DNA from: Paracoccaceae bacterium
Lineage (GTDB): Bacteria; Pseudomonadota; Alphaproteobacteria; Rhodobacterales; Rhodobacteraceae
DNA length: 64,000 nt
NCBI GenBank assembly: GCA_947476475.1
Contig: CANJQT010000001.1
Location: 84,597 to 148,596, forward strand
Direction of reading: 5' to 3'
Positions 24,273 through 51,715 of this stretch are shown here, piece after piece (within the stretch, counting starts at the first letter, position 1; each line of letters begins with the position of its first letter). The translations under genes and the position numbers were made by a program. The notes beneath the pieces were generated by a model that was given only the letters and a program-made list of their open reading frames with translations, was not told the DNA's origin and did no database searches.

Positions 24273-25310
24273 ATGACCGACACCCCTTCAACCGTGGGCG
24301 CGCTTCTTGTTTCAACCCCGCCCGAGTTTTCCGAAAGCGCTGTGGCAGGCATGGCGCGCAAGCATTTTGGGCGCGAGGGGCAACTCAGGCGGCTGACCTC
24401 GGAACGCGATCTGAATTTCCAGCTTTCGGCCGCCAGTGGAGAAAGCCATGTGCTGAAGATCGCCAATCTGGCCGAGCCGATCGAAAGCACACATTTCCAG
24501 ACCGAGGCGCTTTTGCATCTGGCACGCGCTGCCCCCGAACTGCCCGTGCCCCGCGTCGTCCGCACCCTGACCGGGGCGACCGAGGCGACCCTGCCGGAAG
24601 GCAATATCCTGCGGCTTTTGACCTTTCTGGAAGGCGAGCCTCTGCACCGTGCCCAGTCCAGCGCCGCGCAAAGCCGCTCGATGGCCGGCATCGGGGCCAC
24701 GCTGGCGCGGGCCTTGCGCGGCTTTGACCATCCCGCAGCCGACCATGATCTTTTGTGGGACATCAAGCAGGCTTCCCGCCTGCGCGCCTTGCTGCCTGCC
24801 ATGACCGACAAGGACCTGCGCAGCCTGATTTCGGCGCGCCTTGACCTGTTCGAAATGCGTGTGAGCCCTGCCTTGCCTGCCTTGCGCTGGCAGGTGGTCC
24901 ACAACGACCTTAACCCCCACAACGTGCTGGTCGATCCCGCCGATCACGCCCGCGTTTCCGGCATTCTCGACTTTGGCGACATGGTGCGCACACCGCTGAT
25001 CTGCGATGTGGCAGTGACCGCGTCTTACCAGGTCGACGCGGCCGACCCATTGGCCTCGCTGGTCAACTTCGCCGGGGCTTGGCACGCCGCTGACCCGCTG
25101 GAGGAGGCCGAGCTTGATCTGCTGTTCGATCTGGTCGCCACCCGGATGATCACGACCATCGCCATCGCGGGTTGGCGCGCCGCCCGCTACCCGGAAAATG
25201 CCCCCTATATCCTGCGCAACGTTCCCCGGGCGCTGGCCGGGTTTCAGGCCTTCGAACGCCTGTCGCCTGCTGAAGTCCGCCGCGAGCTTGCCGCAGCCTG
25301 TCCCCCGTGA
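24273..25310 (+). CDS. Aminoglycoside phosphotransferase (APH)-fold kinase, hydroxylysine kinase-like
   Basis: 'QVVHNDLNPHNVLVD' and 'VSGILDFGDMVRTPLICDVAV'; immediately upstream of a class-III PLP enzyme. Confidence 0.82.
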   Translation: MTDTPSTVGALLVSTPPEFSESAVAGMARKHFGREGQLRRLTSERDLNFQLSAASGESHVLKIANLAEPIESTHFQTEALLHLARAAPELPVPRVVRTLTGATEATLPEGNILRLLTFLEGEPLHRAQSSAAQSRSMAGIGATLARALRGFDHPAADHDLLWDIKQASRLRALLPAMTDKDLRSLISARLDLFEMRVSPALPALRWQVVHNDLNPHNVLVDPADHARVSGILDFGDMVRTPLICDVAVTASYQVDAADPLASLVNFAGAWHAADPLEEAELDLLFDLVATRMITTIAIAGWRAARYPENAPYILRNVPRALAGFQAFERLSPAEVRRELAAACPP

Positions 25311-25320
25311 AGGATCCGAC

Positions 25321-26649
25321 ATGAAACCCAAGGACTCCATGGTCAACGCCTTCGTGCCCGGGGCCGCGATGCTTTCGCCTGAAGATGCGGCGCTGGTCGC
25401 CCGCCGCGAGGCCGCCCTTGGCCCCGCCTACCGGCTTTTCTACGCCAACCCCGTGCATTTGGTGCGCGGCGAAGGTGTCTGGCTTTATGACAAGGACGGC
25501 AACGCCTATCTTGATACCTATAACAACGTGGCATCGATCGGCCATTGCCACCCGCATGTGGTGGCGGCCACGGCGCGCCAGTCGGCGATCCTGTCCAGCC
25601 ATACGCGCTATCTGCATGAAGGTGTGCTCGACTATGCCGAAAAGCTGCTTGCAACGTTCCCGGCCCCGCTTTCGCATGTGATGTTCACCTGCACTGGTTC
25701 CGAGGCGAACGATCTGGCGATGCGTATCGCCCGTGAACACACCAGCGGCACAGGCATCATCGTCAGCGAAAATGCCTATCACGGGGTGACAGCGGGGGTG
25801 GCCGAATTTTCGCCCGCGCTTGGCCCCGGCGTGCCGCTTGGCGTGCATGTGCGCGCCGTTCCCGCCCCCGACCCCCACCGCGCGGCCGCAGGGGATGTGG
25901 CGGCCAGCTTCACCGCAGCCGTGCAGGCTGCCATCGACGATCTGATCCGCCACGGCATCAGACCCGCGGCCCTGATCGTCGATACGGTCTTTTCCTCGGA
26001 CGGGGTCTTTTGCGATCCGCCGGGCTTCCTGAAAGGTGCTGTCGCGGGCATCCGCGCCGCCGGCGGCCTGTTCATCGCCGATGAGGTCCAGCCCGGCTTT
26101 GGCCGCACCGGCGATGCAATGTGGGGCTTTCAACGGCACGGGATCGTGCCCGACATGGCCTCGCTCGGCAAACCGATGGGCAATGGCTATCCGGTGGCGG
26201 GTTTGGTGCTGCGCCCCGAGGTGGTGGCCGAGTTCGGCGCAAAGGGGCGTTACTTCAACACCTTCGGCGGTAATGGCACGGCGGTCGCCACCGCGATGGC
26301 AGTGCTAGAGGTGGTCGAGGGCGAGGGGCTTCAGGCCAATGCCGCCGCCGTAGGCCGTTATTTCCGCGACGGGCTGCGCGATCTGGCCACCCGCCACGAG
26401 GCCATCGGCGACGTGCGCGGCGCGGGCCTATTCCTTGGGGTCGAACTGGTCAGCGACCGCGCAGCGATGACGCCCGACGCCGCCCGCACCGCCCGAATCG
26501 TCAACGCCCTGCGCGAGGCACGCATCCTGATCAGCGCCACCGGCCCGCGCGCCAATATCCTGAAGATCCGCCCGCCGCTGGTCTTTTCCCACGCCAATGT
26601 CGATCTGTTCATCGACCGGCTGGATCAGGTGATGCAGGCCGAACGCTGA
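25321..26649 (+). CDS. Class-III aminotransferase fold protein (AGXT2L / ethanolamine-P or 5-phosphohydroxylysine phospho-lyase-like)
   Basis: 'YLDTYNNVASIGHCHPHVV', 'FTCTGSEANDLAMRIAREHT', 'FIADEVQPGFGRTGDAMWGF', 'LGKPMGNGYPVAG'. Confidence 0.85.
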   Translation: MKPKDSMVNAFVPGAAMLSPEDAALVARREAALGPAYRLFYANPVHLVRGEGVWLYDKDGNAYLDTYNNVASIGHCHPHVVAATARQSAILSSHTRYLHEGVLDYAEKLLATFPAPLSHVMFTCTGSEANDLAMRIAREHTSGTGIIVSENAYHGVTAGVAEFSPALGPGVPLGVHVRAVPAPDPHRAAAGDVAASFTAAVQAAIDDLIRHGIRPAALIVDTVFSSDGVFCDPPGFLKGAVAGIRAAGGLFIADEVQPGFGRTGDAMWGFQRHGIVPDMASLGKPMGNGYPVAGLVLRPEVVAEFGAKGRYFNTFGGNGTAVATAMAVLEVVEGEGLQANAAAVGRYFRDGLRDLATRHEAIGDVRGAGLFLGVELVSDRAAMTPDAARTARIVNALREARILISATGPRANILKIRPPLVFSHANVDLFIDRLDQVMQAER

Positions 26650-26775
26650 TCGGGGCGAGGGGCTATCGCGAAGACACCACGGTGGGGCTTCTGCCGACTT
26701 GGCAGGCTTCTCGCGCTGACCCAAGGTATCGTTGCAACGATGCCCCGACGGCAACCAGATGCCCATGGTCGCTGG

Positions 26776-27426
26776 CTACTTCAGCGCCGCACTCAAGTCC
26801 GTCTGGTGCGGGAATTGGCCCTTGGCAATATAGTCCATTTCTTCTGCCGTCGACGTTCGGCCAAGAACCGCATTGCGGTGGGGGTGGCGCCCGAATTCGG
26901 CAATGACTGCACGTTGCAGCCTCGGCTGCCGGGCAGCGAACGCATAGGCTTGCCTCAGATTGTCCGGTGCTTCTTTCGCGAGTTGGTCTGCGATCATGAC
27001 GGCGCGATCAAGATTGGCCAGATGGTTCGGGCATTCGCAATGCTCCAGCGGCAGCTTGAAGGCCGATTTTTGCCAGACATTTTCAAGCGCCTCGAAATGC
27101 CCGTTTTCCAGACCTTCAATGCAAAGGGCGAGCGCCTTGGGGTCTTGGGAATAGGCCCCCGCACTTCCAGCCCAGACGGTTCTGGGAAATTGGTCAAGAA
27201 GGATGATCAGCGCAAGTCGCCCATGCGGCGTTTCAGCCCAACGATCAAACTCGCCAAGCGCGGCGCGCTCTGTCACTTCGGAATATCTTGCAAGAATTTC
27301 GCCATTGGCCCCACCCCGCATCCGCCATGTCCAAAGGTCCATATGGCGTTTCGGTTCCGGACTGGGGCCATCGGGGAACCAAAAAGTGATGATTTCCTGC
27401 GGTTTGGTTACGGGTTGGTCCGCCAT
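26776..27426 (-). CDS. DUF924 family protein
   Basis: 'EIITFWFPDG', 'GRLALIILLDQFPRTVWAGSAGAYSQDPKALAL', 'RQPRLQRAVIAEFGRHPHRNAVLGR'. Confidence 0.88.
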   Translation of the reverse strand: MADQPVTKPQEIITFWFPDGPSPEPKRHMDLWTWRMRGGANGEILARYSEVTERAALGEFDRWAETPHGRLALIILLDQFPRTVWAGSAGAYSQDPKALALCIEGLENGHFEALENVWQKSAFKLPLEHCECPNHLANLDRAVMIADQLAKEAPDNLRQAYAFAARQPRLQRAVIAEFGRHPHRNAVLGRTSTAEEMDYIAKGQFPHQTDLSAALK

Positions 27427-27685
27427 TATTCTTTCCCCCAGAAGAGCCAGAAGTTTGACCGCCACGTTTTCACTTTCAACCGCATCGTAAGCACAGCCAG
27501 GTCGCAAATCGAAAGCAAACGGACAGGCTGCGTTCAAAGGGCCAGATGGCTGTGGGTCGGTTTGGATTGCCACGCGTTATCCATCGGCGACAGGCTTTCA
27601 GGATGCTCCCAGCCACCATCCCGATCCCCATTGACTGCCGCTCGGAAATCGTCTTACTATACAACCGTTCAGTAAGGAGGCGGCG

Positions 27686-29719
27686 ATGGATCCAGACCAC
27701 GCGATCCTGTTTGATCCGGTCCGCATTGGGCCGGTTACGGCGCCCAACCGCTTTTACCAGACCCCTCATGCGACCGGCCTTGGCTGGCAGCGACCGCAGG
27801 CCGGGGCGGCGCTGCGCGGTGTGAAGGCCGAGGGTGGCTGGGGCGTGGTCTGCACCGAATACTGCTCGATCCATCCCAGTTCGGACGACAGCCCTTATGG
27901 TTTCCTCACCCTGTGGGACGACGCCGATGAATGCGCGCTTGCCCGCACTGCCGAGGCGATCCATGCCCATGGCGCGCTTGCAGGGATCGAACTGTGGCAC
28001 GGCGGCGCCCATGCCTCGAACCGGATGACGCGCACCCCCGGCATTGCCCCCGCGACACAACCCGCGCTTTACCATCTGCCTACCACCGCCCGCGCGATGG
28101 ACATGGCAGACATCCGCGCCTTTCGCGGCTGGCAGCGCACGGCGGCCCTGCGGGCCAAACGCGCGGGTTTTGACATCATCTATGTCTATGCGGGCCATGA
28201 TTACCTGCCCTTCCAGTTCCTGTCGGCGCGCAGCAATGACCGGGGCGACGCTTATGGCGGCCCCCTGGAAAACCGCGCCCGCCTTTTGCGCGAGATGATC
28301 GAGGACACCAAGGACGCGGTGGGCGACCGCTCAGCCGTGGCGCTGCGGCTGGCGGTGGATGAACTTCACGGCCCGCGCGGCATCACCTCGGAGGGCGAGG
28401 GGCGCGATGTGGTGGCGATGCTGGCGGAATTGCCGGACCTGTGGGATGTGAACGTCGCGGGGGCGCTGGGCAACGACAGCAAGTCGGCCCGCTTTTCGCC
28501 CGAAGGATTTCAGGAACCCTATGTGGCATTCGTCAAAAGTCTGACCAGCAAACCCGTTGTGTCGGTCGGCCGCTTTACCAGCCCCGACCGGATGGTCAGC
28601 CAGATAAAGCGCGGTATCCAGGATTTCATCGGCGCGGCGCGGCCTTCAATTGCCGATCCGTTCCTGCCCGCCAAGATCCGCGAAGGCCGGGCGGACGAGA
28701 TCCGTGAATGCATTGGTTGCAACATCTGCCGGGCGGCCAACAATGAAGGCGTGCATCTGCGTTGCACCCAGAATCCGACGATTGCCGAGGAATGGCGGCA
28801 GGGCTGGCACCCCGAGCGGGTGACGATCCATCCCCGCCGCGACAAGGTTCTGGTGGTGGGGGCGGGGCCCTCGGGGCTGGAGGCCGCGCTGACTCTGGGC
28901 CGGCGCGGGCTTGAGGTGACTCTGGCCGAGGAACAGGGCCAGCTTGGCGGCAGGCTTTTGCGTGAAGCGACCCTGCCGGGCCTTGCCACCTGGATGCGTG
29001 TGCGCGATTGGCGCGCCCATATGATCGGAAAGCTGGCAAATGTAGAGGTTTTTCGTGGCAGTGCCATGACGGCCGCGGACGTCGCCGCATTCGCAGCGGA
29101 TCATGTGGTTCTGGCCACCGGGTCACGCTGGCGGCGTGACGGGGTCGGTGTGGTGGGGATGGAGCCGCGCGGTTTTCCGGGTGCGCTGACGCCGGACGAT
29201 ATTTTTGCGGGCGCGACGGTGACCGGCCCGGTGGTGATCCATGATGACGAACACTATTTCATGGGGGGCGCGCTGGCTGAACGTCTGGCGGGGCAGGGCC
29301 ACCGGGTCGCGCTGGTGACACCGCACACGATGGCATCTAGCTGGACGGTGATGACGAATGAGCAGGATTTCATTCAGGCGCGCCTGATTGAAGCCGGGGT
29401 GACATTGATCACCGCGCAAAGCGTCACCGCCCGGTCGGACGGTGAAGCCCGTCTGGAGTGCGCCTATACCGGCCGTGAAAGCCGCATCCCGTGTGGCACG
29501 CTGATCCTTGTTACCGGACGTCTGCCCGACGATCAGCTTTACCGCAACCTGCTGGCCCTGCACGGCCTGCCCCCCGTCAGCCGGGTCGGTGATTGCCTGC
29601 AACCCTCGTCCATCGCCGATGCGGTCTATTCCGCCCACCGTTTCGCCCGGGCCTATGGCCAGACGGACGAGGGCCCACTGGCCCGCGAACGCCCGCCCTT
29701 TCAGGAGGTTCGCCCATGA
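27686..29719 (+). CDS. Trimethylamine/dimethylglycine dehydrogenase-like FMN/FAD/4Fe-4S oxidoreductase
   Basis: 'HAILFDPVRIGPVTAPNRFYQTPHATGLG', 'VKAEGGWGVVCTEYCSIHPSSDD', 4Fe-4S 'CIGCNICRAANNEGVHLRCTQNPT', 'GAGPSGLEAAL'. Confidence 0.87.
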   Translation: MDPDHAILFDPVRIGPVTAPNRFYQTPHATGLGWQRPQAGAALRGVKAEGGWGVVCTEYCSIHPSSDDSPYGFLTLWDDADECALARTAEAIHAHGALAGIELWHGGAHASNRMTRTPGIAPATQPALYHLPTTARAMDMADIRAFRGWQRTAALRAKRAGFDIIYVYAGHDYLPFQFLSARSNDRGDAYGGPLENRARLLREMIEDTKDAVGDRSAVALRLAVDELHGPRGITSEGEGRDVVAMLAELPDLWDVNVAGALGNDSKSARFSPEGFQEPYVAFVKSLTSKPVVSVGRFTSPDRMVSQIKRGIQDFIGAARPSIADPFLPAKIREGRADEIRECIGCNICRAANNEGVHLRCTQNPTIAEEWRQGWHPERVTIHPRRDKVLVVGAGPSGLEAALTLGRRGLEVTLAEEQGQLGGRLLREATLPGLATWMRVRDWRAHMIGKLANVEVFRGSAMTAADVAAFAADHVVLATGSRWRRDGVGVVGMEPRGFPGALTPDDIFAGATVTGPVVIHDDEHYFMGGALAERLAGQGHRVALVTPHTMASSWTVMTNEQDFIQARLIEAGVTLITAQSVTARSDGEARLECAYTGRESRIPCGTLILVTGRLPDDQLYRNLLALHGLPPVSRVGDCLQPSSIADAVYSAHRFARAYGQTDEGPLARERPPFQEVRP

Positions 29720-31245
29720 GCGACGCAGCCCATGGCCGCCGTGACCGCCGCGCGCCGCGCGCCACTGGCGGGCTGATCCAGCAGCCTTTCGGTCAGGTCC
29801 AGCGCCCCTATGCGCCAATTGAGGTGATCAGCGCCGATCAGACCGAGGCGATCCACCAATCCGCGCTGCGGGTTCTGGCCGAAATCGGCATGAAGGTGCT
29901 TGAGCCGCGCGCCCGCGACCTGTTCCGGCAGGCCGGGGCTACGGTGCAGGGCGAAACCGTCCGGCTGGATCCCGCGCTTGTCACCACCCTTCTGGCCCGC
30001 GTACCCGCGCGCTTTACCCTTGCCGCCCGCAACCCAGGCCGCAGCCTGCGCTTTGGTGGGCAGGACAGCGTTTTCGCCTCGGTCGGCGGGCCTGCCTATG
30101 TGATGGACAATGACCGGGGCCGTCGCGACGGCACCTTTGCCGAAATGTGCGACTATCTGCGGCTGATCCAGACCCTGAACGTGATCCATCAGGAAGGCGG
30201 CGGCCCGTTCGAACCTTTGGACCTGCCTGCCGATACCCGGCACCTTGATATCTATCACGCGCAGATCACGCTTCTGGACAAGAATTGGCAGACCCAGACC
30301 CTTGGCCATGCCCGCACGATGGACGGAATCGAGATGGCAGCCCTTGCCATGGGCACCACGCCCGAAGGGCTGAAGGAAAGGCCAACCTTGCTGGGCATCA
30401 TCAACACCAACTCGCCCCTGCAACTGGACATCCCGATGGCCGAAGGGCTGATCGCCATGGCCGAACACGGGCAGGTGCTGGTCATCACCCCCTTCACGCT
30501 GGCGGGCGCCATGAGCCCGGTGACGCTGGCCGGGGCATTGGTGATGCAGCATGCCGAGGCGATGGCGGGCATCGCCCTGACCCAGATCGTCCGCCCCGGC
30601 GTGCCGGTGATGTATGGCGGCTTCACCTCGAACGTCGATATGCGTTCGGGTGCGCCTGCCTTTGGGACGCCCGAATATACCAAGGCCGCACAGGCGTCGG
30701 GCCAGCTTGCCCGCCATATCGGCGTGCCGTTCCGGTCGTCGAACGTCAATGCCGCGAACGAGGTCGATGCTCAGGCCGCCTACGAATCCCAGATGGCGCT
30801 TTGGGGTTCTCTCATGGGCGGCGCGCATCTGATCGAACATGCGGCGGGCTGGCTGCATGGCGGGCTGACCGCCAGCTTCGAGAAACTGATCCTTGATGCA
30901 GAGATGCTGCAGATGATGCAGGCCTATTTCACCCCTATCCAGGTTGATGAGGCCACTTTGGCCTTCGACGCGATCCGCGAAGTGGGGGCCGGCGGCCATT
31001 TCTTCGGTTCAGACCATACGATGACGCGGTATGAAACCGCCTTCTACACGCCGCTTCTGTCGAACTGGGACAATCATCCCAACTGGCTTGAACGCGGCGC
31101 GGTCCAGACCCGTGAACGTGCAAACGTGATCTGGAAGCAGATGCTGCGCGACTATGAACAGCCGCCCCTCGATCCCGCCATCAACGAAGCGCTGCTGGCC
31201 TACGTGGCCCGGCGAAAAGCCGAAGGCGGCGCCCCGATGAACTGA
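29716..31245 (+). CDS. Trimethylamine methyltransferase (MttB) family protein, non-pyrrolysine
   Basis: 'SALRVLAEIGMKVLEPRARDLFRQAGA', 'GSLMGGAHLIEHAAGWLHGGLTASFEKLILDAEMLQMMQAY'; uninterrupted frame; ATGA overlap with preceding gene. Confidence 0.85.
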   Translation: MSDAAHGRRDRRAPRATGGLIQQPFGQVQRPYAPIEVISADQTEAIHQSALRVLAEIGMKVLEPRARDLFRQAGATVQGETVRLDPALVTTLLARVPARFTLAARNPGRSLRFGGQDSVFASVGGPAYVMDNDRGRRDGTFAEMCDYLRLIQTLNVIHQEGGGPFEPLDLPADTRHLDIYHAQITLLDKNWQTQTLGHARTMDGIEMAALAMGTTPEGLKERPTLLGIINTNSPLQLDIPMAEGLIAMAEHGQVLVITPFTLAGAMSPVTLAGALVMQHAEAMAGIALTQIVRPGVPVMYGGFTSNVDMRSGAPAFGTPEYTKAAQASGQLARHIGVPFRSSNVNAANEVDAQAAYESQMALWGSLMGGAHLIEHAAGWLHGGLTASFEKLILDAEMLQMMQAYFTPIQVDEATLAFDAIREVGAGGHFFGSDHTMTRYETAFYTPLLSNWDNHPNWLERGAVQTRERANVIWKQMLRDYEQPPLDPAINEALLAYVARRKAEGGAPMN

Positions 31246-31285
31246 CAGGCTAACCTCCGTACTGCATCGTTTTTTTTCAGAAGAG

Positions 31286-33322
31286 ATGCCCATGCCCACG
31301 ACCCGCACCGACTTCCCCCACAAGGTCGAGATCATCGAAAACCTGATGATCCTGCTACCCGACGGCACCCGCCTTGCGGCCAAGGTCTGGCGGCCGGAAG
31401 GGGCAGGGGTCACCGGCCCGGCGGTGCCCGCGATCCTTGAATACCTGCCCTACCGCAAACGTGAAGGCACCCGTGGCCGCGATCAGGGGCTGCATATGTA
31501 TTTCGCCGGTCACGGCTATGCCTCGATCCGGCTGGATATCCGCGGTACCGGCGACAGCGAAGGTGTGATCACCGACGAATATACGGTGCAGGAACAGATC
31601 GACGGCTGCGATGCGATCGACTGGATTTCGCGCCAGCCCTGGTGCGACGGCCAGGTGGCGATGATCGGCATTTCATGGGGCGGCTTCAATGCGCTTCAGA
31701 TTGCGGCCCGCCAGCCGACTGCGCTGAAGACCATCATCCCGGTCGGCTTCACCGACGACCGCTATGCAACCGACATCCATTTCGTTGGCGGGTGCCTGTC
31801 CAAAGACAATTTCGACTGGTCCGCCACCATGATGGCGCACAACGACCTGCCGCCCGACCCCGAAATTGTCGGCGAAAACTGGCGGGCCTTGTGGCAGGCG
31901 CGGATCGAAGCAAACAGCCCCTGGGCCCATATCTGGATGCGCCACCAGCGCCGGGACGACTATTGGAAGCAGGGCTCGGTCTGCGAGGATTTTTCCGCCA
32001 TCACCATTCCGGTCTATGCCATATCCGGCTGGGCCGACAATTATTCCGAAGCGGTGCCGCGGTTGCTTGCAGGTCTTTCCGGCCCGCGCCTGGGTCTGAT
32101 CGGCCCGTGGGCCCATTCCTTCCCCCATTCCGTCACGGTCGAACCCGCCATCGGCTGGCTGCAAGAGGTGGTGCGCTGGTGCGACCACTGGATGAAGGGC
32201 CGCGATACCGGGATGATGACAGAACCCATGTACCGGGTCTGGATGCAGGAGGGCCTGCCGCCCCGCACCTGCTATCTGGAACGCCCCGGCCGCTGGGTGG
32301 CCGAAGAAAGCTGGCCTTCGCCCCGCATCGACTGGCGCCGCCTGCACATGAACGCCGGGGCCGCGCTGGCCCCTGTGCCGACCCGCGACACCCCCGCAAG
32401 TATCTGCTCGCCTCTCTGGGTTGGTCTCGCGGCGGGCGAGGTCGGGCGTTACGGCGAAGATGCCGAATGGCCCACCGACCAGCGCGAGGATGACGGCGGA
32501 TCGCTGGTGTTCCTGTCCGATCCCTTGCCCGAACGGCTGGAGATCCTTGGGGCGCCACAGCTGCACCTGACCTTCAGCAGCGACAAGCCGCAGGCCTTGG
32601 TCTCGGTGCGGCTTAACGATGTGGCCCCGGGTGGCGCGTCAACCCGCGTGACGGTCGGCCTGTTAAACCTGACCCACCGTGACGGCCACGAACATCCCAC
32701 GGCGTTGACGCCGGGCCGGACCTATCAGGCGGTGGTCGACCTGGATGACATTGCCCATGCCTTCGCCCCCGGCCATCGCATTGCCGTTTCGCTGTCCACG
32801 ACCTACTGGCCGATCGCCTGGCCCTCGCCGGAACTGGCCACGCTGACAGTCACCTGCGGGGCAAGCCATCTGGCGCTTCCCGTCCGCCCGCCGCGCCCCG
32901 AAGACGCTGCCCTGCGCCCGTTTGGAGCACCGGAACAGGCGCCTCAAACCCCCGTAACCCACCGCAGCATCGCGCCAGCCCATCACCGCCGCGTTGTGCG
33001 CGACCTGTTGTCGGGCAAGATGACCGTCGATTTCCCGCGCTGGACCTATACCAGCGTGATGGAGGATATCGCCGTCACCCAAACTTCCGAAGGCTTTGCC
33101 CGCTATGAGATCACCGACAATGATCCCCTGTCAGCGGCGCTGATCACCGATTACCGCGTTGAAATCGAACGCAAAGATACCACCATCGGCCACCACAGCA
33201 CCGGGCGGCTGACTTGCGACACCAGCCATTTTATCCTCGAAAGCACGCTTACCGTTTCCGAACGCGGCAAGGACATATTTCACCGCAACTGGCACGAAAG
33301 GATCCCCCGTGACATGCTGTAG
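31286..33322 (+). CDS. CocE/NonD family hydrolase (X-Pro dipeptidyl-peptidase S15 type)
   Basis: 'PAILEYLPYRKREGTRGRDQ', 'DIRGTGDSEG', 'GQVAMIGISWGGFNALQIAARQP', C-terminal jelly-roll domain. Confidence 0.9.
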   Translation: MPMPTTRTDFPHKVEIIENLMILLPDGTRLAAKVWRPEGAGVTGPAVPAILEYLPYRKREGTRGRDQGLHMYFAGHGYASIRLDIRGTGDSEGVITDEYTVQEQIDGCDAIDWISRQPWCDGQVAMIGISWGGFNALQIAARQPTALKTIIPVGFTDDRYATDIHFVGGCLSKDNFDWSATMMAHNDLPPDPEIVGENWRALWQARIEANSPWAHIWMRHQRRDDYWKQGSVCEDFSAITIPVYAISGWADNYSEAVPRLLAGLSGPRLGLIGPWAHSFPHSVTVEPAIGWLQEVVRWCDHWMKGRDTGMMTEPMYRVWMQEGLPPRTCYLERPGRWVAEESWPSPRIDWRRLHMNAGAALAPVPTRDTPASICSPLWVGLAAGEVGRYGEDAEWPTDQREDDGGSLVFLSDPLPERLEILGAPQLHLTFSSDKPQALVSVRLNDVAPGGASTRVTVGLLNLTHRDGHEHPTALTPGRTYQAVVDLDDIAHAFAPGHRIAVSLSTTYWPIAWPSPELATLTVTCGASHLALPVRPPRPEDAALRPFGAPEQAPQTPVTHRSIAPAHHRRVVRDLLSGKMTVDFPRWTYTSVMEDIAVTQTSEGFARYEITDNDPLSAALITDYRVEIERKDTTIGHHSTGRLTCDTSHFILESTLTVSERGKDIFHRNWHERIPRDML

Positions 33323-33343
33323 GCGAAAGGTGGGGGGCGGCAG

Positions 33344-34294
33344 ATGCTGACCTACACGATCAAACGTATCGGCCTTGCCGTGTTGATCCTGTTTCTGGTC
33401 ATGCTGGCCATGTACGCAATGGTTTTTGTCGTACCGGGCGATCCGGCCGCAGTGGCCCTTGGTCCCCGCGCCACCCCCGCACTGAAGGCCGAACTGATCA
33501 CCCGCATGGGTCTTGACCAGCCGCTTTACGCGCAGGTCTGGAACTTTTTTCGCAACGCGGCCACCGGCGATCTTGGCTTTGATGTCTGGTCCAAGCGCCC
33601 GGTCCTGTCGATGATCCTTGAAGTGTTCCCCAACACGCTGATCCTCGGCGCGGTGGCTCTGGGCGTGGCGCTGGTTCTGGGCGTGTCGCTGGGCTGCCTG
33701 TCGGTCATCTGGCGCGGCAGTCTGATCGACCGGGTTCTGGCGATCCTGTCGGTTTCCATGATCTCGGTGCCGTCTTTCGTCATCGCCATCTACGGGCTGC
33801 TGATCTTTTCGGTTTGGCTGGGCTGGCTACCCGCCATCGGTGCGGGCGAAAAAGGCGATCTCGGCAGTCAGGCCCGCGCAGTGATCCTTCCGGCCTTTGC
33901 GGTAGGGATCAGCTGGGTGGGCTACCTTGCCCGTCTTGTCCGCGCATCGATGCTTGAAGTGATGGGGGCCAATCATATCCGCACCGCCCGCGCCTTTGGT
34001 CTGCCCGAAGGGCGCATCGTCGCCCGCTATGCTTTGCGCATCGCCATCATCCCGACCATTGCCATCCTTGCCGTGGGGTTTGGGTCGATCTTGTCGTCGG
34101 CGGTCTTTGTCGAAACTGTCTTTTCCCGCCCCGGCATCGGATCGCTGATCACGCAGGCGGTAGCCAAGCGCAACTATCCGCTGGTGATGGGTACGGTGCT
34201 GTTCATGACCGCCTTCTACCTTGTCGTCGTCACTGCCGCCGATCTGCTGATCGCCCGGCTGGATCCAAGGGTGCGCGATGTCTACCGTAGCTGA
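33344..34294 (+). CDS. Dipeptide/oligopeptide-type ABC transporter permease (DppB-like)
   Basis: 'MLTYTIKRIGLAVLILFLVM', 'TARAFGLPEGRIVARYALRIAIIPTIAILAVGFGSILSSAVFVETVFSRPGIG'. Confidence 0.92.
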   Translation: MLTYTIKRIGLAVLILFLVMLAMYAMVFVVPGDPAAVALGPRATPALKAELITRMGLDQPLYAQVWNFFRNAATGDLGFDVWSKRPVLSMILEVFPNTLILGAVALGVALVLGVSLGCLSVIWRGSLIDRVLAILSVSMISVPSFVIAIYGLLIFSVWLGWLPAIGAGEKGDLGSQARAVILPAFAVGISWVGYLARLVRASMLEVMGANHIRTARAFGLPEGRIVARYALRIAIIPTIAILAVGFGSILSSAVFVETVFSRPGIGSLITQAVAKRNYPLVMGTVLFMTAFYLVVVTAADLLIARLDPRVRDVYRS

Positions 34295-35150
34295 AATAAA
34301 TCCCCGGCGGCGCACCGCCCTTGCGGCACTTCGGCGCGATCCGATGGGCCTGTTGGGTGCCATTCTGGTGGCAGGTTTCGTCACGATGGCGATCTTCGCG
34401 CCACTTCTTGCGCCCTACGACCCGATCAAGATCGACGTGGCCCACAAATTCGCACCCGCCGACTTTGCGCATTGGGCCGGAACCGATCAGCTTGGCCGCG
34501 ATATCCTGAGCCGCATCATCTGGGGCGCGCGCACAGCACTGGGCATCGCGCTGACCGCCACCGGGCTTGCCGGGGTGATTGGTCTTCTTCTGGGCCTTGT
34601 CGCCGGATACGGGCCGCGCTGGCTGGACGGGATCTTGGTGCTGCTGTTCGACTCCGTTTCCTCGCTGCCGATGGTGATGTTCGCGCTGGCGGTGATCACT
34701 GTCCTTGGCCCCGGCACCTCGACCCTGCTTCTGGTGATCATTATCATCTCGATCCCCGGATACGCGCGGCTGATCCGCGCCCAGACCCTGACGCTGCAGC
34801 AGGCCGATTTCATTCAGGCCGAACGTACGATCGGCGCGTCGCCCGCCCGCATCATCCTGCGCCACCTGCTGCCCAATGTGGTGGGCCCGCTGGTCATCGT
34901 CCTGTCGATGGATGTGCCGGTCGTTATCATGCTTGAAGCGGGGCTGAGCTACCTTAACCTTGGGGTCAGGCCGCCTACGCCAAGCTGGGGCAACATCCTC
35001 TACGATGGCTATACCTCGCTGCGGCAAGCCCCCGGCATGGTCATCGCCGCCGGCCTGCCACTGGTGCTGGCCACCCTCGGCTTTACCTTCCTTGGCGAAG
35101 GCCTGCGCGACGCGCTGGACCCGAAACTGCAGTTGAGGGTGCCTAAATGA
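34278..35150 (+). CDS. Dipeptide/oligopeptide-type ABC transporter permease (DppC-like)
   Basis: 'HWAGTDQLGRDILSRIIWGARTAL', 'GLSYLNLGVRPPTPSWGNILYDG'. Confidence 0.92.
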   Translation: MSTVAEINPRRRTALAALRRDPMGLLGAILVAGFVTMAIFAPLLAPYDPIKIDVAHKFAPADFAHWAGTDQLGRDILSRIIWGARTALGIALTATGLAGVIGLLLGLVAGYGPRWLDGILVLLFDSVSSLPMVMFALAVITVLGPGTSTLLLVIIIISIPGYARLIRAQTLTLQQADFIQAERTIGASPARIILRHLLPNVVGPLVIVLSMDVPVVIMLEAGLSYLNLGVRPPTPSWGNILYDGYTSLRQAPGMVIAAGLPLVLATLGFTFLGEGLRDALDPKLQLRVPK

Positions 35151-36121
35151 CCGCGCCTGTCCCGCTTCTGTCGGTCGAAAATCTGACAATCACCTATGCC
35201 AGTGACGCGGGCCCCGTGCAGGCGCTGAGGGCCGCCCACCTGACCGCACGGGCGGGCGAGGTGATCGGCATTGTCGGTGAAAGCGGCTGCGGCAAATCCA
35301 CGCTCGCCTCGGCGCTGATCAACCTGCTGGCGGCCAATGCAAGGGTAACATCCGGGGCGGTGCGCCTGCGCGGCCAAGATATCCTGACCCTGCCCGAAGA
35401 CGCCAAACGCGCCATCCGGGGCCGCCATATTGCCATGGTCTTTCAGGATCCGATGACCTCTTTCAATCCTGTTCTGCCGCTTGGTGCCCAGTTGACCGAC
35501 TTTCAGCATCACCTGCCCCAGACCCGCGCCGAAAAACGCACGCGCGCCCGCGCCATGCTGGCCCGCGTAGGCATTCCCGATCCCGATCTGGTGCTGACCC
35601 GCTTCATCCACGAACTTTCAGGCGGCATGCGCCAGCGGGCCGCCATCGCCGCAGCCTTGCTGATGACCCCCGATGTGCTGGTGGCGGACGAACCCACCAC
35701 TGCCCTTGACGTGACGATGGAGGCGCAGATCATCCACCTTCTGCGCGCCCTGCGCGCCGACCATCAGGGTACGATCCTGATCGTCACCCATCATCTGGGG
35801 GTCATCGGCGAACTTTGCGACCGCGTCTATGTGATGTACGCGGGCCAGGTGGTCGAAGAGGCAACGGTCGATGATCTTTATCACGCGCCCCGCCACCCCT
35901 ACACCCGCGCGCTGATCGCCTGCGACCCCGCGCACCTTGAAACCCACACGCCGGTCTTGCCCACCATCCCCGGCCATCTGCCCGACCTGACTGCCCCACC
36001 GCCCGGCTGCAGCTTTGCCAACCGCTGTCCGCTTGTCACATCGCGTTGCCACACGGCACCCCCGCCCTGGGTGCGCCTGTCGGATACGCAGGCCGCCCTC
36101 TGCCATGAGGTTGCGCCATGA
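35147..36121 (+). CDS. Dipeptide-type ABC transporter ATP-binding protein (DppD-like)
   Basis: 'GIVGESGCGKSTLASAL', 'ELSGGMRQRAAIAAALLMTPDVLVADEPTTALD', C-terminal 'GCSFANRCPLVTSRC'. Confidence 0.92.
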   Translation: MTAPVPLLSVENLTITYASDAGPVQALRAAHLTARAGEVIGIVGESGCGKSTLASALINLLAANARVTSGAVRLRGQDILTLPEDAKRAIRGRHIAMVFQDPMTSFNPVLPLGAQLTDFQHHLPQTRAEKRTRARAMLARVGIPDPDLVLTRFIHELSGGMRQRAAIAAALLMTPDVLVADEPTTALDVTMEAQIIHLLRALRADHQGTILIVTHHLGVIGELCDRVYVMYAGQVVEEATVDDLYHAPRHPYTRALIACDPAHLETHTPVLPTIPGHLPDLTAPPPGCSFANRCPLVTSRCHTAPPPWVRLSDTQAALCHEVAP

Positions 36122-37092
36122 CCGCACTTTACGATGTGAAGAACCTGTCGGTTGACCTGACGCTTCCCCAAGGCCTTGTGGGGATGCTGCTGCCCGGCTC
36201 CAAACCGAAGCTGAACCTGCTGAAAGCCATTTCCCTGACCCTGAACCAGAGTGAAACCTTTGGGCTGGTCGGTGAAAGCGGGTCGGGCAAGACCACGCTC
36301 GCCCGCGCCATGCTGGGTCTTTTGCCCATCTCTGGCGGGCAACTGGCGTTCGAGGGGCAGCCTCTGACCAGTTCCCGCAGCTTCACCCCATTGCGCCGCC
36401 GGGCGGCGATGATGTTTCAGGATGCCACCGCCTCGCTTTCACCGCGGATGACGGTGGGCGCGCTGCTGGCTGAACCTTTCCACATCCACCGCCAGCCCTT
36501 GCCAGACCCGAACGCCATGGCCGCATCCCTTCTGGCACGCGTCGGCCTTCCCGCCGCCATCGCCGGCCGCTTTCCGCATGAACTGTCGGGCGGTCAGGCC
36601 CGCCGCGTCGGCGTCGCCCGTGCCCTTGCGCTGAACCCCGCGCTGGTCATTGCAGACGAGCCGACGGCGGGGCTTGATGTCTCGGTGCAGGGCGAGGTGC
36701 TGAACCTGATGACCGCCCTTAAAGCCGACCTCGGGCTTTCGCTGATGATCATCACCCACAATTTGGCAATGGTGCGCCATGTGTCGGACCGTATCGCCAT
36801 CCTTTACCTTGGCCGGCTTATGGAAACCGGTCCCACCCGCGCGGTCTTTGCCCGCCCTGCCCATCCCTACACCCAAAGCCTGATCGCCTCTGAACCTCAG
36901 CCTGATCCCCGCAAGCGCCGCACCGGCCCGGCGATCAGCGGAGAGATCCCTTCGGTGTTGAACCGCCCCGCGGGCTGTGCATTCCACAGCCGCTGCCCGC
37001 GCGCGGCAGCCCTTTGCCGCCATACCACGCCCGAATTGCGTGATCTGGGGCAGGGCCGCGCCGCTGCCTGCCATTTTGCTGAACTGACCTGA
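36118..37092 (+). CDS. Dipeptide-type ABC transporter ATP-binding protein (DppF-like)
   Basis: 'GLVGESGSGKTTLARAMLG', 'LSGGQARRVGVARALALNPALVIADEPTAGLD', 'GCAFHSRCPRAAALC'. Confidence 0.92.
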   Translation: MTALYDVKNLSVDLTLPQGLVGMLLPGSKPKLNLLKAISLTLNQSETFGLVGESGSGKTTLARAMLGLLPISGGQLAFEGQPLTSSRSFTPLRRRAAMMFQDATASLSPRMTVGALLAEPFHIHRQPLPDPNAMAASLLARVGLPAAIAGRFPHELSGGQARRVGVARALALNPALVIADEPTAGLDVSVQGEVLNLMTALKADLGLSLMIITHNLAMVRHVSDRIAILYLGRLMETGPTRAVFARPAHPYTQSLIASEPQPDPRKRRTGPAISGEIPSVLNRPAGCAFHSRCPRAAALCRHTTPELRDLGQGRAAACHFAELT

Positions 37093-37117
37093 TGAAACCA
37101 CCCATGGAGGACTGACG

Positions 37118-38662
37118 ATGGACTGGAATACCGACCGGCGCGGCCTGCTGAAGGCCGCAGGCGCCCTTGCAGGGCTGATGACTGTCCCCAATATCGCCTG
37201 GGCGGTCGAAGGCGATACGTTGCGCGTGCGCGTAGACGGCGATCTTCAGGTGCTTGATCCCTGGGGCAATCTTGGTGGCATCGACGAAATGATCCCCCGC
37301 TGCACCACCGTAGCCCTGATCCGCTTCGGCGACACCCGCGAAGGCAACCCGCTTTTCAACTGGGGCGCCGAGAAATACGAATGGACTGACGACAAGACCA
37401 TCGCCTTCACGCTGCGCGAAGGCCTTGTCTGGAACAAGGGCTTCGGGCCGGTGACCGCGGATGACGTGAAATACTCGTTCGAACGGATCGCCAATTCCGA
37501 CAGCCCCTGGGCCTATCAGTTCGAAAAGCTGGATCATGTCGAAGTGGTCGATGCCCGGTCCGGCATCATCCACCTGAAAGAGGCTTTCCGCCCGTTCGAA
37601 ATCATCGCGCTGCCCTATTACGGCGGCCATATCGTCTGCAAAGCGGCGGTCGAGGCCGTGGGCGGCAAGTACACCACGGAAATCCCAGCGGAATGCGGCC
37701 CCTTCCTGATGGAAAGCTGGGAACAGGGCCAAAAGGCTACCCTTGTCGCCAACCCTGACTGGACCGGCCCGAAACCGGATTTCAGCAAGATTGAAATCTA
37801 TATCGTCGTCGATGATCAGGCCGCCCAACTGGCCTACGAGGCAGATGCGTTCGACTATACACGCCTTGCCGTTTCCGCATCAAAGCAGGTCAAGGAAAAC
37901 CTGCCTGCCGGGGCGACGCTTCTGGAAATGGCCTCTTCGCGCTATGCGTGGCTGACCATCAACATCGCCTCACCGCAACTGCAGGACATCCGCGTTCGTC
38001 AGGCCATCCAGTATGCGTACGACGGCGATGCGGTTCTGCTGGGTGCCTATGACGGGTTGACCGGACGGTCCGCCGGCGTCGTTCTGCCCTCGACCCCCTA
38101 TGCGCGCGAAAAGAACCTGATCGACCGCGACGTTGAAAAGGCCAAGGCGCTTCTGGCCGAAGCCGGCGTCAGCGATCTGACTCTGACGCTGAATGTGCAG
38201 ACCGACAGCACCAGTCAGGCCGTGGCACAGATCATTCAGGCCAGCATGGCCGAAGCCGGCATCACCATCGAAATCGCGCCCACCGAAGATGCCGCCTATT
38301 GGGTGTTGGGCGACAAGACCCAGGGCGACGGCTACAAGACCATCGAACTGGTGCTCATGTCCTTCGCAGGCGGGATCGAGCCTACCGAAAACCTCGTCTG
38401 GTTCCGCCCGGATCAGATCGGCGCATGGAACTGGTCCAGCTTCGACAGCCCGGAATATGAGGAACTGTACCAGAAGGCCCAGATCGAGACCGACACCGCC
38501 AAACGCAAGGAATTGTGCAACCGGATGGAAGACCTCATGGAACAGTCCGGCGGCTTCATCTTCATCTGCTTCGAACCGTTTGTTGCTTTGCATGATGACA
38601 ACCTCAAGCCGGTGATCCTGTCGGATGGCTACCTTGACCCCGTGATGTTCAAGAAACTATGA
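37118..38662 (+). CDS. ABC transporter substrate-binding protein, family 5 (DppA-like), Tat-type signal
   Basis: 'DRRGLLKAAGALAGLMTVP' signal; 'IAFTLREGLVWNKGFGPVTADDVKYSFERIAN'. Confidence 0.92.
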   Translation: MDWNTDRRGLLKAAGALAGLMTVPNIAWAVEGDTLRVRVDGDLQVLDPWGNLGGIDEMIPRCTTVALIRFGDTREGNPLFNWGAEKYEWTDDKTIAFTLREGLVWNKGFGPVTADDVKYSFERIANSDSPWAYQFEKLDHVEVVDARSGIIHLKEAFRPFEIIALPYYGGHIVCKAAVEAVGGKYTTEIPAECGPFLMESWEQGQKATLVANPDWTGPKPDFSKIEIYIVVDDQAAQLAYEADAFDYTRLAVSASKQVKENLPAGATLLEMASSRYAWLTINIASPQLQDIRVRQAIQYAYDGDAVLLGAYDGLTGRSAGVVLPSTPYAREKNLIDRDVEKAKALLAEAGVSDLTLTLNVQTDSTSQAVAQIIQASMAEAGITIEIAPTEDAAYWVLGDKTQGDGYKTIELVLMSFAGGIEPTENLVWFRPDQIGAWNWSSFDSPEYEELYQKAQIETDTAKRKELCNRMEDLMEQSGGFIFICFEPFVALHDDNLKPVILSDGYLDPVMFKKL

Positions 38663-38672
38663 CCTGACGAAA

Positions 38673-38697
38673 GGTGCCGCGCCTCGTGCGCGGCACC
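38673..38697. promoter_or_regulatory. Strong hairpin GGTGCCGCGC-CTCGT-GCGCGGCACC between SBP gene and TetR gene
   Basis: Perfect 10-bp inverted repeat; no T-tract follows. Confidence 0.5.
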
Positions 38698-38721
38698 ATC
38701 CCCACCCTGAAGGGAACCGCG

Positions 38722-39333
38722 ATGCCTGAACCGCGCTTTCGCCGCTATTCGTCCGAAGTGCGCGCCGCCATGCTGGTCGATGCGGGCCTTGCCTGCCTTG
38801 CGCGTGGCGGCATCACCGCCTTCACCACCGACAACATCTGCCGCGAAGCGGGGGCCTCGCGCGGGTTGATTACCCATCACTTCGGCTCGATCGACGGGCT
38901 TCTGGCCGCCGTCTACGCCGCAGCCTACCAGCCGATGCTCGATAGTCTGGCGCCGGAAGGCGAAACGTCACCCTCCCTCATGCAGATCATTGAACGGGTT
39001 TTTGGCACCTACAATTTCACCCGCGACAGCCTGAATGTATGGTTGGCGCTTTGGGGCGAGATTGCCACCAACCCGGCGCTTCAGGCCGAACACCGCCGAC
39101 ACTATGCCCGTTATCGCGCCACGGTGGCCCGCGCCATCGACGACCTGGCCCGCGCGCGCGGGCTTTCCGTCGATTCGCAGGACCTTGCGATATCGGTCAT
39201 TGCCCTTATCGACGGGCTTTGGCTCGAACAGGGTATTGACCCCGAACTTCTCTCGCCTACCCGCTCAATTGATGCTTGCCGACGGATGCTGGAGCCGATC
39301 TTTGGCCCCTTGGCGGGATCGCTCGCACCATGA
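38722..39333 (+). CDS. TetR family transcriptional regulator (BetI-like)
   Basis: 'RYSSEVRAAMLVDAGLACLARGGITAFTTDNICREAGASRGLITHHFGSIDGLLAAVY'. Confidence 0.9.
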   Translation: MPEPRFRRYSSEVRAAMLVDAGLACLARGGITAFTTDNICREAGASRGLITHHFGSIDGLLAAVYAAAYQPMLDSLAPEGETSPSLMQIIERVFGTYNFTRDSLNVWLALWGEIATNPALQAEHRRHYARYRATVARAIDDLARARGLSVDSQDLAISVIALIDGLWLEQGIDPELLSPTRSIDACRRMLEPIFGPLAGSLAP

Positions 39334-40577
39334 CCCTTTTCTCTGATCCCCGCAAACGCGCCTTTCTCAACCCCGACGGCGCGGACAAACCGCTCAAAAG
39401 CCCTGTTTCCCATTCCACACTTGATCGCGCACGAACCTTTCGTAAGGCGCGGATGGTCGCGCAGGTGGTCAAACACGATTGCGCTGCGATCCTCTTGTTT
39501 GATGCGGTCAGCATCCGCCACGCGCTCGATGTGGCAAACATGCAGGTCTGGGCGCTTCACAACGCCTTTCACTACGCCCTGATCTTTGCCGACGGCTACG
39601 CGATAGATTTCCAGTATGCTGGAGCAGAGCACCTGTCTGCGGGCCTGCCCGGCATAGACGAGGTTCGTACAACCAAAGCCTGGTTCTACCAGTATTCCGG
39701 TGAAAACCTGAGTTCTGCGGTCGAATCCTGGGCCGCCGAAATTGCCGACTGTTTGGCGACCTATGGCGGCGGCAATACCCGACTCGCGGTCGACAAGCTG
39801 GATGCGCCGGGTGTGGATGCCCTGCGCCGCCGCGGCCTGACACTCGTCGAAGGGCAGGAACTGACCGAACACGCACGCATGATCAAAGGCCCGGACGAGC
39901 TGGATCTGATGCAATGGACCATCCGTGTGGCCGAAGCGGGCATGGCCCGAATGTATGAGCATTCCGTCGCGGGCAAGACCGAGCAGGAAATCTGGGCCGA
40001 ACTGCATTTTGAAAATATCCGCTCTGGCGGGGAATGGATCGAGACGCGGCTTTTGGCCGTCGGTCAAAGGACAAATCCATGGTTTCAGGAATGCTCGGAC
40101 CATGTTGCCCAGACCGGGGATATGCTTGCATTTGATACTGACATGGTCGGGCCATACGGCTATTGCGCTGACCTTTCGCGCAGCTGGACAATTGATCACA
40201 CACCAATGAACGATCGGCAAAAAAGGCTCTACGCTGATGCGCTGGCCCAGATAGAGCACAACACCGCTCTGATCCAGCCAGGCATGGATTTCCGGGAGTA
40301 TATGGAAAAGTCCTGGCCAATCCCGGAACCCTATGTGGCCAACCGCTACTCTTGCGCGTTGCATGGTGTGGGCATGGTCGATGAATACCCCTGGGTGCCC
40401 TTCGCCAATGATGCGGCCTCGTTGCTGGCCGGGTGGTTTGAGCCGGGCATGGTGCTTTGTGTGGAAAGCCTGATTGCCGAGACGGGCGGGTATGAATCGA
40501 TAAAGTTGGAAACCCAGGTGGTCGTAACAGCGACAGGTGCACGCCGGATGGACAGTTTCCCATGGGAAGACATTTAG
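39330..40577 (+). CDS. M24 family metalloprotein, DddP (DMSP lyase)-like
   Basis: 'GGEWIETRLLAVGQRTNPWFQECSDHVAQTGDMLAFDTDMVGPYGYCADLSRSW', 'CALHGVGMVDEYPW', 'CVESLIAETGG', 'KLETQVVVT'; M24 metal ligands D,D,D,H,E,E present. Confidence 0.75.
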   Translation: MTLFSDPRKRAFLNPDGADKPLKSPVSHSTLDRARTFRKARMVAQVVKHDCAAILLFDAVSIRHALDVANMQVWALHNAFHYALIFADGYAIDFQYAGAEHLSAGLPGIDEVRTTKAWFYQYSGENLSSAVESWAAEIADCLATYGGGNTRLAVDKLDAPGVDALRRRGLTLVEGQELTEHARMIKGPDELDLMQWTIRVAEAGMARMYEHSVAGKTEQEIWAELHFENIRSGGEWIETRLLAVGQRTNPWFQECSDHVAQTGDMLAFDTDMVGPYGYCADLSRSWTIDHTPMNDRQKRLYADALAQIEHNTALIQPGMDFREYMEKSWPIPEPYVANRYSCALHGVGMVDEYPWVPFANDAASLLAGWFEPGMVLCVESLIAETGGYESIKLETQVVVTATGARRMDSFPWEDI

Positions 40578-45775: not shown

Positions 45776-46255
45776 TCAACCGCGCCGCGCGGCCTCGATC
45801 GCGGCAACGTCGATTTTCGTCATTTCCATCATCGCCGCAAACGCGCGTCTTGCTTCATCGCCGCCTGCGTCCAGCGCCTCGATCAGCACGCGCGGCGTGA
45901 TTTGCCAGTTGACGCCCCATTTGTCCTTGCACCAGCCGCAGGCGCTTTCCTGACCACCATTGCCGACGATGGCGTTCCAGTAGCGATCCGTCTCCTGTTG
46001 GTCGTCTGTGGCGATCTGGAACGAGAAGGCTTCGTTGTGTTTGAACGCAGGCCCGCCATTGAGGCCCAGGCACGGGATGCCGGAGACGGTGAACGCGACG
46101 GTCAGCACGTCACCCGTCTTGCCGGACGGGTAGCCACCGGGTGCGCGCGTGACGGCACCTACCCAGCTATCCGGAAAAGTCTCGGCGTAGAAGCTGGCTG
46201 CCGCCTCGGCGTCTGTGTCATACCATAGGCAGATCGTGTTCTTGGCAGTTGCCAT
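45776..46255 (-). CDS. VOC family protein (PhnB / 3-demethylubiquinone methyltransferase-like)
   Basis: 'MATAKNTICLWYDTDAEAAASFYAETFPDSWVGAVTRAPGGYPSGKTGDVLTVAFTV', 'CGWCKDKWGVNWQITPRVL'. Confidence 0.9.
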   Translation of the reverse strand: MATAKNTICLWYDTDAEAAASFYAETFPDSWVGAVTRAPGGYPSGKTGDVLTVAFTVSGIPCLGLNGGPAFKHNEAFSFQIATDDQQETDRYWNAIVGNGGQESACGWCKDKWGVNWQITPRVLIEALDAGGDEARRAFAAMMEMTKIDVAAIEAARRG

Positions 46256-46585
46256 GGCTTGCCTTTTCGCCTTTCGCAGCCAATCCAGCCCCGGTTTCCC
46301 GCGTGCTCCAGCACGCCCATATTTGGCTTCAAGGGCATGTGACAAACTTTGTACGCGCCCGTCCACACACATTTCGCGGCAATGCCCTGAAAACAGTCGT
46401 CGCCGGTTCCAGTTTGGGCCTGCCGCTCATCCAGGACGATGTTCCGCTTGCGTCAAGAACAGCGGCTGCCCAACCTCGGCCTCGCCCAGCCGAGCGGACT
46501 TCATGCCTTGGCGCCTTGATTGGCGCAGGCCGCCGACAGCCCGAAAATCCCTCGCAACAGCCGCCCCTTTTGTGCCATCCTTCCC

Positions 46586-46607
46586 CCGACCGACCGACCG
46601 ACCGACC
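46586..46607. repeat. Tetranucleotide tandem repeat (CCGA)5 plus CC
   Basis: ...CCCCCGACCGACCGACCGACCGACCAAG..., 28 bp upstream of the ATG of the Rieske gene. Confidence 0.85.
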
Positions 46608-46635
46608 AAGCGCCGTCCGCGATACAGAGGATGCC

Positions 46636-51702: not shown

Positions 51703-51715
51703 TCGGACAAACAAC

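Follow-up and report, generated by a model that had tools for sequence, protein, structure and literature searches.

Here we present a ten-gene operon in a Paracoccaceae bacterium, lying within a 64,000-nucleotide stretch of DNA that was analysed at full length (the window), as a candidate system for the catabolism of a quaternary ammonium (betaine-type) conjugate. The genes occupy 27686-40577 on the plus strand and encode, in order, a trimethylamine dehydrogenase (TMADH)-like flavoenzyme, an MttB-family methyltransferase, an S15/CocE hydrolase, DppB, DppC, DppD, DppF, a solute-binding protein (SBP), a TetR regulator and an M24 enzyme resembling the dimethylsulfoniopropionate (DMSP) lyase DddP. 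The gene set is a real regulon that, in general terms, probably serves to N-demethylate a conjugate taken up by the cell. We give about an even chance to the full reading, a TetR-repressed operon for import, hydrolysis and corrinoid- and flavin-dependent demethylation of such a compound. DMSP or sulfonium chemistry is unlikely.

Co-conservation and the shared operator

The unit was traced by an MttB-seeded genome scan, from which the best 80 of 283 MttB hits were taken as named loci with flanks and the window genes were mapped onto them; 57 of these loci have full flanks. The TMADH-like gene adjoins mttB in 56 of the 57, TetR is present in 51, the S15 gene in 48 and an orthologous Dpp importer in 46. 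All five parts occur together at 39 of the 57, so that the neighbourhood conservation on which a first-pass annotation of the sequence had staked its proposal does hold. The conserved unit is the nine-gene core, that is the operon minus the DddP-like gene, and it is common to Rhodobacteraceae and rhizobia, with occurrences in Rhodobacteraceae, Mesorhizobium, Aestuariivirga and Rhodospirillales. On a Fuscovulum ytuae plasmid (NZ_CP124537) the genes are colinear with the window except for the DddP-like gene. Mesorhizobium loti and Gemmobacter straminiformis are examples of cultivable relatives that carry the cluster. Elsewhere the order changes: the TetR-Dpp-S15 block is transcribed away from TMADH-like-MttB in most Rhodobacteraceae, the two blocks face each other in Mesorhizobium, and at some loci, the window included, all genes of the unit are co-directional. 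Content that is kept through such rearrangement supports a functional unit more strongly than mere synteny would. An S15-seeded search of 298 family genomes found 10 of 11 orthologs with usable context adjoining TMADH-like-MttB, and the eight more distant S15 loci that were examined (41-50%) with other neighbours, mostly other importers.

The flanks of the unit show further associations. TMADH-like-MttB is flanked at four loci (L044, L048, L054, L062) by BKACE, GNAT and histone-deacetylase-like genes and by the genes for an M19 dipeptidase and an accompanying Dpp importer of the peptide type. At four others (L007, L013, L023, L025) mttB is followed by amidohydrolase, glutamine amidotransferase-like and glutamate-synthase-like genes that recall N-methylglutamate synthase and are possibly a route for released methylamine. 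Candidates for another importer at S15 loci without Dpp were rejected: the neighbour at L006 is a sulfate permease, and those at L009 are DUF6476 or have no match.

A palindrome-constrained motif search of the regions preceding the TMADH-like gene (69 after removal of redundancy) returned GTTGAACGATCGTTCAAC / ACTATACnnnnGTTCAAC (width 16, log-likelihood 619 vs about 70 in shuffled regions). Scanning with the resulting matrix revealed one strong site in the window, over the -10 box of the sole promoter-like site in 27400-27800, and the operator consensus occurs a single time in the whole 3.9-Mb genome. Across 2.46 Mb of loci, 132 of 138 matches of at least 13 bits lie at the starts of S15, TMADH-like, MttB, SoxB and neighbouring Dpp/TetR/BKACE genes. 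Sites of at least 16 bits number 109 in the 80 loci, against a median of 1 with column-permuted palindromic controls, and are found in 56/57 full loci; in Mesorhizobium separate sites stand at the TMADH-like and the S15 promoters. This common operator at the conserved promoters sustains the single regulon that had been proposed, and the persistence of gene set plus operator in dozens of genomes is far beyond chance. By its linkage, the site probably belongs to the operon's own TetR, which reaches 81.5 bits against the BetI choline repressor model TIGR03384 (cutoff 201.3). A genome-wide operator search in 19 other genomes gave, apart from the sites at the cluster itself, outlying matches that, where read (L197, L198, L209), had no recognisable pathway gene, and a weak site near the mttB paralog on contig C98 precedes a DUF6456 gene and was judged to be chance.

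At two loci the regulon has a minimal form (L049:9144-19123 and L052:1459-11292), in which TetR-MttB adjoins dimethylglycine dehydrogenase (DMGDH) and sarcosine oxidase genes. Operator sites lie both upstream of MttB/TetR and upstream of soxB-soxD-soxA-soxG-dmgdh, no S15, Dpp or TMADH-like gene was seen beside mttB, and the MttB proteins are nested in the window clade (support 100/99). The same operator at a sox/DMGDH operon ties the pathway to the stepwise oxidation of N-methyl amino acids, and the predicted catabolic end is thus the oxidation of N-methylated amino acids.

Residue signatures and competing explanations

The window MttB matches PF06253 over positions 3-500 of 500 (652 bits, cutoff 25). 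Its 509-codon frame is open, with no in-frame TAG, which makes it the non-pyrrolysine (non-Pyl) member that the first-pass annotation had named; against the Pyl equivalog TIGR02369 it scores 287.6, short of 525. Its closest relatives of known structure are 4YYC from S. meliloti and MtgB from D. hafniense (2QNE/9YCE). Docking has proposed Y94, N199, R309, H345 and F353 as the betaine-binding residues of MtgB (PMC6855144), and the corresponding positions in the window MttB are Gly, Asn, Arg, His and Gly. The Gly at Tyr94 is invariant in the window clade and the N199, R309 and H345 equivalents are kept there, so that the predicted glycine-betaine pocket (Y94, N199, R309, H345) is incomplete. Tyr94 is retained in D. 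hafniense MtgB, in 4YYC and in the genome's own paralog on contig C98, which does fit MtgB, and the window clade is split from 4YYC/C98 with 100/100 support. The change from Tyr94 to Gly beside the kept Asn, Arg and His suggests a roomier pocket for a carboxylate-bearing substrate other than glycine betaine. The predicted pocket includes Gly165 and a His-Gly-Gly stretch.

These residues weigh on the proposal that this is simply a glycine betaine operon, in which MttB would be MtgB, the TMADH-like enzyme a dimethylglycine demethylase, Dpp the betaine importer and the hydrolase incidental. PF06253 proteins of Ruegeria pomeroyi do act on glycine betaine (PMC12478193), genes resembling those of sarcosine oxidase and DMGDH accompany the Mesorhizobium loci, and at L049 and L052 the same regulator and same MttB clade control DMGDH and SoxBDAG. 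However, the predicted methyl cage Tyr94 is Gly throughout a clade that stands apart from 4YYC/C98, and the S15 hydrolase and family-5 importer are conserved in most loci yet are not needed for glycine betaine. We therefore regard this proposal as unlikely.

The genome does hold the partners that a methyltransferase of this kind would use. Contig C14 carries together an MtgE-like homocysteine methyltransferase, an MtgC-like B12 protein and DUF1638, a RACo-type activase is on C177 and two pterin-binding proteins are on C76 and C55. The aerobic MtgBCDE-type partner set (MtgC-like, MtgE, DUF1638, activase, pterin protein) is thus present, and from these gene assignments the corrinoid partner system appears to be supplied in trans. 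The likeness to the MtgBCDE system of R. pomeroyi, which performs corrinoid glycine-betaine demethylation with a split methionine synthase, extends to the use of a PF06253 methyltransferase in an aerobic member of the Rhodobacteraceae; the window MttB differs in its clade, in its altered pocket and in having an importer, a hydrolase, a flavoenzyme and a TetR of its own in the same operon. The paper on the R. pomeroyi system predicts other methylated compounds as substrates of the PF06253 paralogs, which number up to seven (PMC12478193). The present genome has 13 PF06253 hits, of which some are truncated at contig ends and two are the halves of one apparently broken gene (G000:C2:83874-85114) that has internal stops and looks like a pseudogene. 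Another paralog (contig C68, L181:4720-10661; 54% to the window MttB) lies beside a DMGDH-like gene and a homolog of aromatic amino-acid lyases, in what may be another betaine pathway.

The TMADH-like enzyme shares the flavin mononucleotide (FMN) barrel, 4Fe-4S cysteines and ADP-binding domain of the trimethylamine/histamine dehydrogenase family (1DJN, 3K30, 6DE6; 6L6J), with 44-49% identity to histamine dehydrogenases, 6L6J and TMADH. All four cysteines are kept, as are the His172, Tyr174 and Asp267 equivalents. In TMADH, Cys30 carries 6-S-cysteinyl FMN, and Tyr60, Trp264 and Trp355 form the trimethylamine bowl. The window enzyme departs from its family here: Ala replaces the Cys for covalent FMN, and of the bowl only Tyr60 is kept, Trp264 falling in a gap and Trp355 being Asn. 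Most relatives carry in the same slot a second TMADH-like type, 46-52% identical to the window type and not nearer to it than histamine dehydrogenase is, with a complementary pattern (Tyr60 to Ala, His172 to Met, Trp355 kept). Two exchangeable amine dehydrogenases, and DMGDH at L049 and L052, fit one role, the demethylation of a tertiary amine.

The S15 hydrolase exceeds the CocE_NonD model TIGR00976 (246.7 bits, cutoff 66.3), and its triad Ser130-Asp251-His277 is invariant in 29 homologs. Bacterial cocaine esterases are the nearest folds to its predicted model (pLDDT 93.7). Fold and invariant Ser-Asp-His are shared with cocaine esterase CocE/S15; the window hydrolase differs in being 22% identical, in its extra C-terminal beta extension, in its predicted cytoplasmic location and in its place within a demethylation operon. 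No signal peptide was apparent by eye, so the substrate is probably imported intact. Loss of two of the three bowl residues means that the TMADH-like enzyme may accept a larger amine, and with the cocaine-esterase folds this invites a different picture, the catabolism of an N-methyl alkaloid or a drug-like tertiary or quaternary amine ester, in which the CocE-like enzyme would open the ester and the TMADH-like enzyme would N-demethylate. We consider this improbable, since the S15/CocE fold at 22% identity is poorly informative on substrate, the predicted carboxylate-binding residues are kept in MttB, and the sarcosine/dimethylglycine link at L049 and L052 favours small N-methyl amino acids.

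The importer has the five-gene SBP5 plus DppBCDF architecture of Dpp/Opp systems, and its binding protein has a Tat-like leader. In DppA, Asp408 contacts the peptide amine. This position is Gly in the SBPs of the window clade and Asp in the M19-dipeptidase-type importers at L044, L054 and L062, a departure from the peptide type that is of moderate strength given the low identity. The predicted SBP model (pLDDT 87) superposes best on the HEHEAA-binding protein AapF (TM 0.84, root-mean-square deviation 2.6). The AapF-PipA/PipR system, in which an SBP5 importer and a hydrolase of the proline-iminopeptidase type serve the ethanolamine derivative HEHEAA (PMC10134790), shows by precedent that a Dpp-like importer and an alpha/beta hydrolase can be dedicated to a small amine derivative; it differs in having a LuxR solo as regulator and no demethylases, and SBP identity is only 22%.

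An ordinary peptide-utilisation operon, made of a Dpp importer and an S15 peptidase with the demethylase genes as hitchhikers, would suit two families that are peptide-associated, and S15-TetR is followed at L078 and L160 by a gene of the M19-dipeptidase type and a further Dpp importer (judged by gene order, the M19 being identified on the L062 homologue). This too seems a poor prospect, because TMADH-like-MttB is the most constant part of the unit, with an operator at its own promoter, and because the Asp for binding peptide N-termini is missing from the SBP.

The M24 enzyme resembles DddP in fold, in all metal ligands and in about 40% identity. Functional residues of DddP are the metal ligands D295, D297, D307, H371, E406 and E421, together with Y366 and D377; alignment to 4rzy shows all of them kept. 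In contrast to DddP, the window enzyme falls below the NCBIfam equivalog cutoff (NF043017, 387.3 bits vs 600), and the certified DddP of this genome is a separate gene on contig C28 (868.8 bits). The DddP-like gene is absent from the conserved unit at the mapped loci and is a local, lineage-specific addition to the operon, and its orthologs sit with LysR and HalD-like or with MttB genes. On these grounds the sulfonium, DMSP and acrylate branch of the first-pass annotation is not supported, and DMSP or sulfonium catabolism centred on this enzyme, despite its conserved ligands, is highly improbable. Of its 17 orthologs in the family, five have an mttB gene within 10 kb, three of them in the order LysR-DddPlike-MttB (L147-L149). 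In Parasedimentitalea and on S. meliloti pSymA, M24 homologs of greater distance are neighbours of mttB and DMGDH genes. The gene thus looks less like a stray than like an accessory that recurs in MttB pathways. A separate conserved neighbourhood (L134-L146) combines LysR, a HalD-like protein (PF23169) and a DddP-like M24, to which L136 and L138 add a gene of the aromatic amino-acid lyase type.

Operon layout and neighbouring genes

The coordinates are collected in the table below. Family matches comprise Oxidored_FMN with Pyr_redox_2 (TMADH family), MTTB, Peptidase_S15 with PepX_C, DppB/C/D/F, SBP_bac_5, TetR with a BetI-type C-terminal domain, and Peptidase_M24. Five junctions overlap by 4-17 bp and the remaining gaps are about 20-60 bp. 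Three starts were re-assigned: mttB to 29716, in an ATGA overlap with the stop of the TMADH-like gene, tetR to ~38722, and the DddP-like gene to 39330, in an ATGA overlap with the tetR stop. The first-pass annotation had described nine same-strand genes; the shared strand, the stop/start overlaps and the presence of all parts stand, and the count becomes ten.

Table. Coordinates of the operon and its control region in the window
Feature	Position	Strand	Basis
Sigma-70-like promoter, -35 TTGACT (27631-27636), 18-bp spacer, -10 TACTAT (27655-27660)	27631..27660	+	consensus match, 9/12
Palindromic operator ACTATACAACCGTTCAGT, probable TetR site, overlapping the -10 box	27656..27673		motif match, 22.9 bits
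TMADH-like FMN/4Fe-4S amine dehydrogenase, 677 amino acids (aa), type A	27686..29719	+	
MttB-superfamily methyltransferase, non-pyrrolysine, 509 aa, pocket signature G-N-R-H-HGG	29716..31245	+	
S15/CocE-NonD serine hydrolase, 678 aa, C-terminal beta extension of ~120-150 aa	31286..33322	+	
DppB-type permease	33344..34294	+	
DppC-type permease	34278..35150	+	
DppD-type ATPase	35147..36121	+	
DppF-type ATPase	36118..37092	+	
Family-5 solute-binding protein, Tat-like signal, Gly at DppA Asp408 position	37118..38662	+	
TetR regulator, BetI-type C-terminal domain, start re-assigned	38722..39333	+	
M24 DddP-like enzyme, 415 aa, lineage-specific operon member, ATGA-coupled to tetR	39330..40577	+	

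Two upstream candidates for membership were rejected. The open reading frame at 26740-27675 (+, 311 aa) has no family match and overlaps an opposite-strand frame (26776-27573) that we take by eye to be DUF924-like, and the pair at 24273-26649 is not co-conserved at the loci. This pair, an APH-type kinase and a class-III aminotransferase, is a split form of a PRK06148-type fusion protein. No Rfam element was found in 22000-46000 of the window. Downstream, a Rieske oxygenase with an N-terminal extension (46249-47769) is distantly like the glycine betaine monooxygenase GbcA (147 bits vs a cutoff of 670). Nitrogen-storage polymer genes follow at 48901-53449, a cyanophycin synthetase (1130 bits vs a cutoff of 850) and then a second Mur-ligase-type protein (577 aa).

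Proposed pathway and its meaning

From the gene content, co-conservation, operator, residue signatures and partner genes observed here we infer the following reactions and substrate class. The SBP and DppBCDF would import a compound without a free alpha-amino terminus. In the cytoplasm the S15/CocE enzyme would then cut an ester or amide bond, freeing an N,N,N-trimethyl amine that bears a carboxylate and is bulkier than glycine betaine or of different shape. MttB would pass one methyl to the in-trans corrinoid protein (the MtgC/DUF1638/RACo-activase system), from which a pterin-binding protein would hand it to tetrahydrofolate. The TMADH-like FMN/4Fe-4S enzyme would oxidatively take a methyl from the resulting tertiary amine, its electrons probably going to electron transfer flavoprotein; some relatives would use DMGDH and sarcosine oxidase for these steps. 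TetR is expected to shut the single promoter through the operator over the -10 box until substrate or product binds, and the DddP-like M24 enzyme, acquired locally, may contribute an optional side activity towards compounds of the same class. Import, hydrolysis and N-demethylation of a methylated amine, as the first-pass annotation had it, is the most economical reading, and it is strengthened by the sox/DMGDH operon under the same operator, by an SBP without the peptide-amine Asp and by the corrinoid partners in trans.

Several observations weigh against this reading. The pocket residues of MttB rest on docking rather than on a ligand structure, and the Asp408 column comes from an alignment in which identity to DppA is ~20%. 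Because the loci are related, common ancestry inflates the operator statistic; it raises the motif score, whereas it does not account for the palindromy or for the sites at second promoters. Three loci (L043, L056, L065) hold TMADH-like-MttB-TetR only, without importer and S15, and the conjugate step may therefore be optional. At L044, L054 and L062, S15 or MttB is paired with an M19 dipeptidase and an SBP that tested as Asp-keeping and peptide-type, and L078 and L160 show a similar pairing by gene order; a peptide-like substrate is thus possible.

A more specific version of the conjugate reading, which we hold to be doubtful, takes the substrate to be an amino-acid amide or a short peptide with an N,N,N-trimethylated (or betainyl) N-terminus. 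The Dpp-like importer would be re-tuned to a quaternary N-terminus (Asp408 to Gly), the S15 hydrolase, of the X-Pro dipeptidyl-peptidase family, would free the betaine, and a corrinoid methyltransferase with a new amino-acid-betaine specificity would act with the M24 (X-Pro-peptidase-fold) enzyme as helper. If so, this would be, to our knowledge, the first catabolic pathway in aerobic bacteria that is dedicated to conjugated betaines. The component families are known, but their combination was not found described in the open-access literature searched, in agreement with the first-pass annotation, which knew of no pathway with this set.

Most PF06253 proteins are non-pyrrolysine and have no known substrate. 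Six members have a defined physiological substrate (PMC12155760), and marine bacteria carry up to seven uncharacterised paralogs (PMC12478193). The operon ties one PF06253 clade to its own importer, hydrolase, flavoenzyme and regulator, and with one binding protein and one repressor linked to MttB the substrate should be findable by ligand screening. If the conjugate reading is true, corrinoid demethylation in aerobes would extend from free osmolytes to conjugated methylamines, with relevance to soil, plant-associated and aquatic bacteria.

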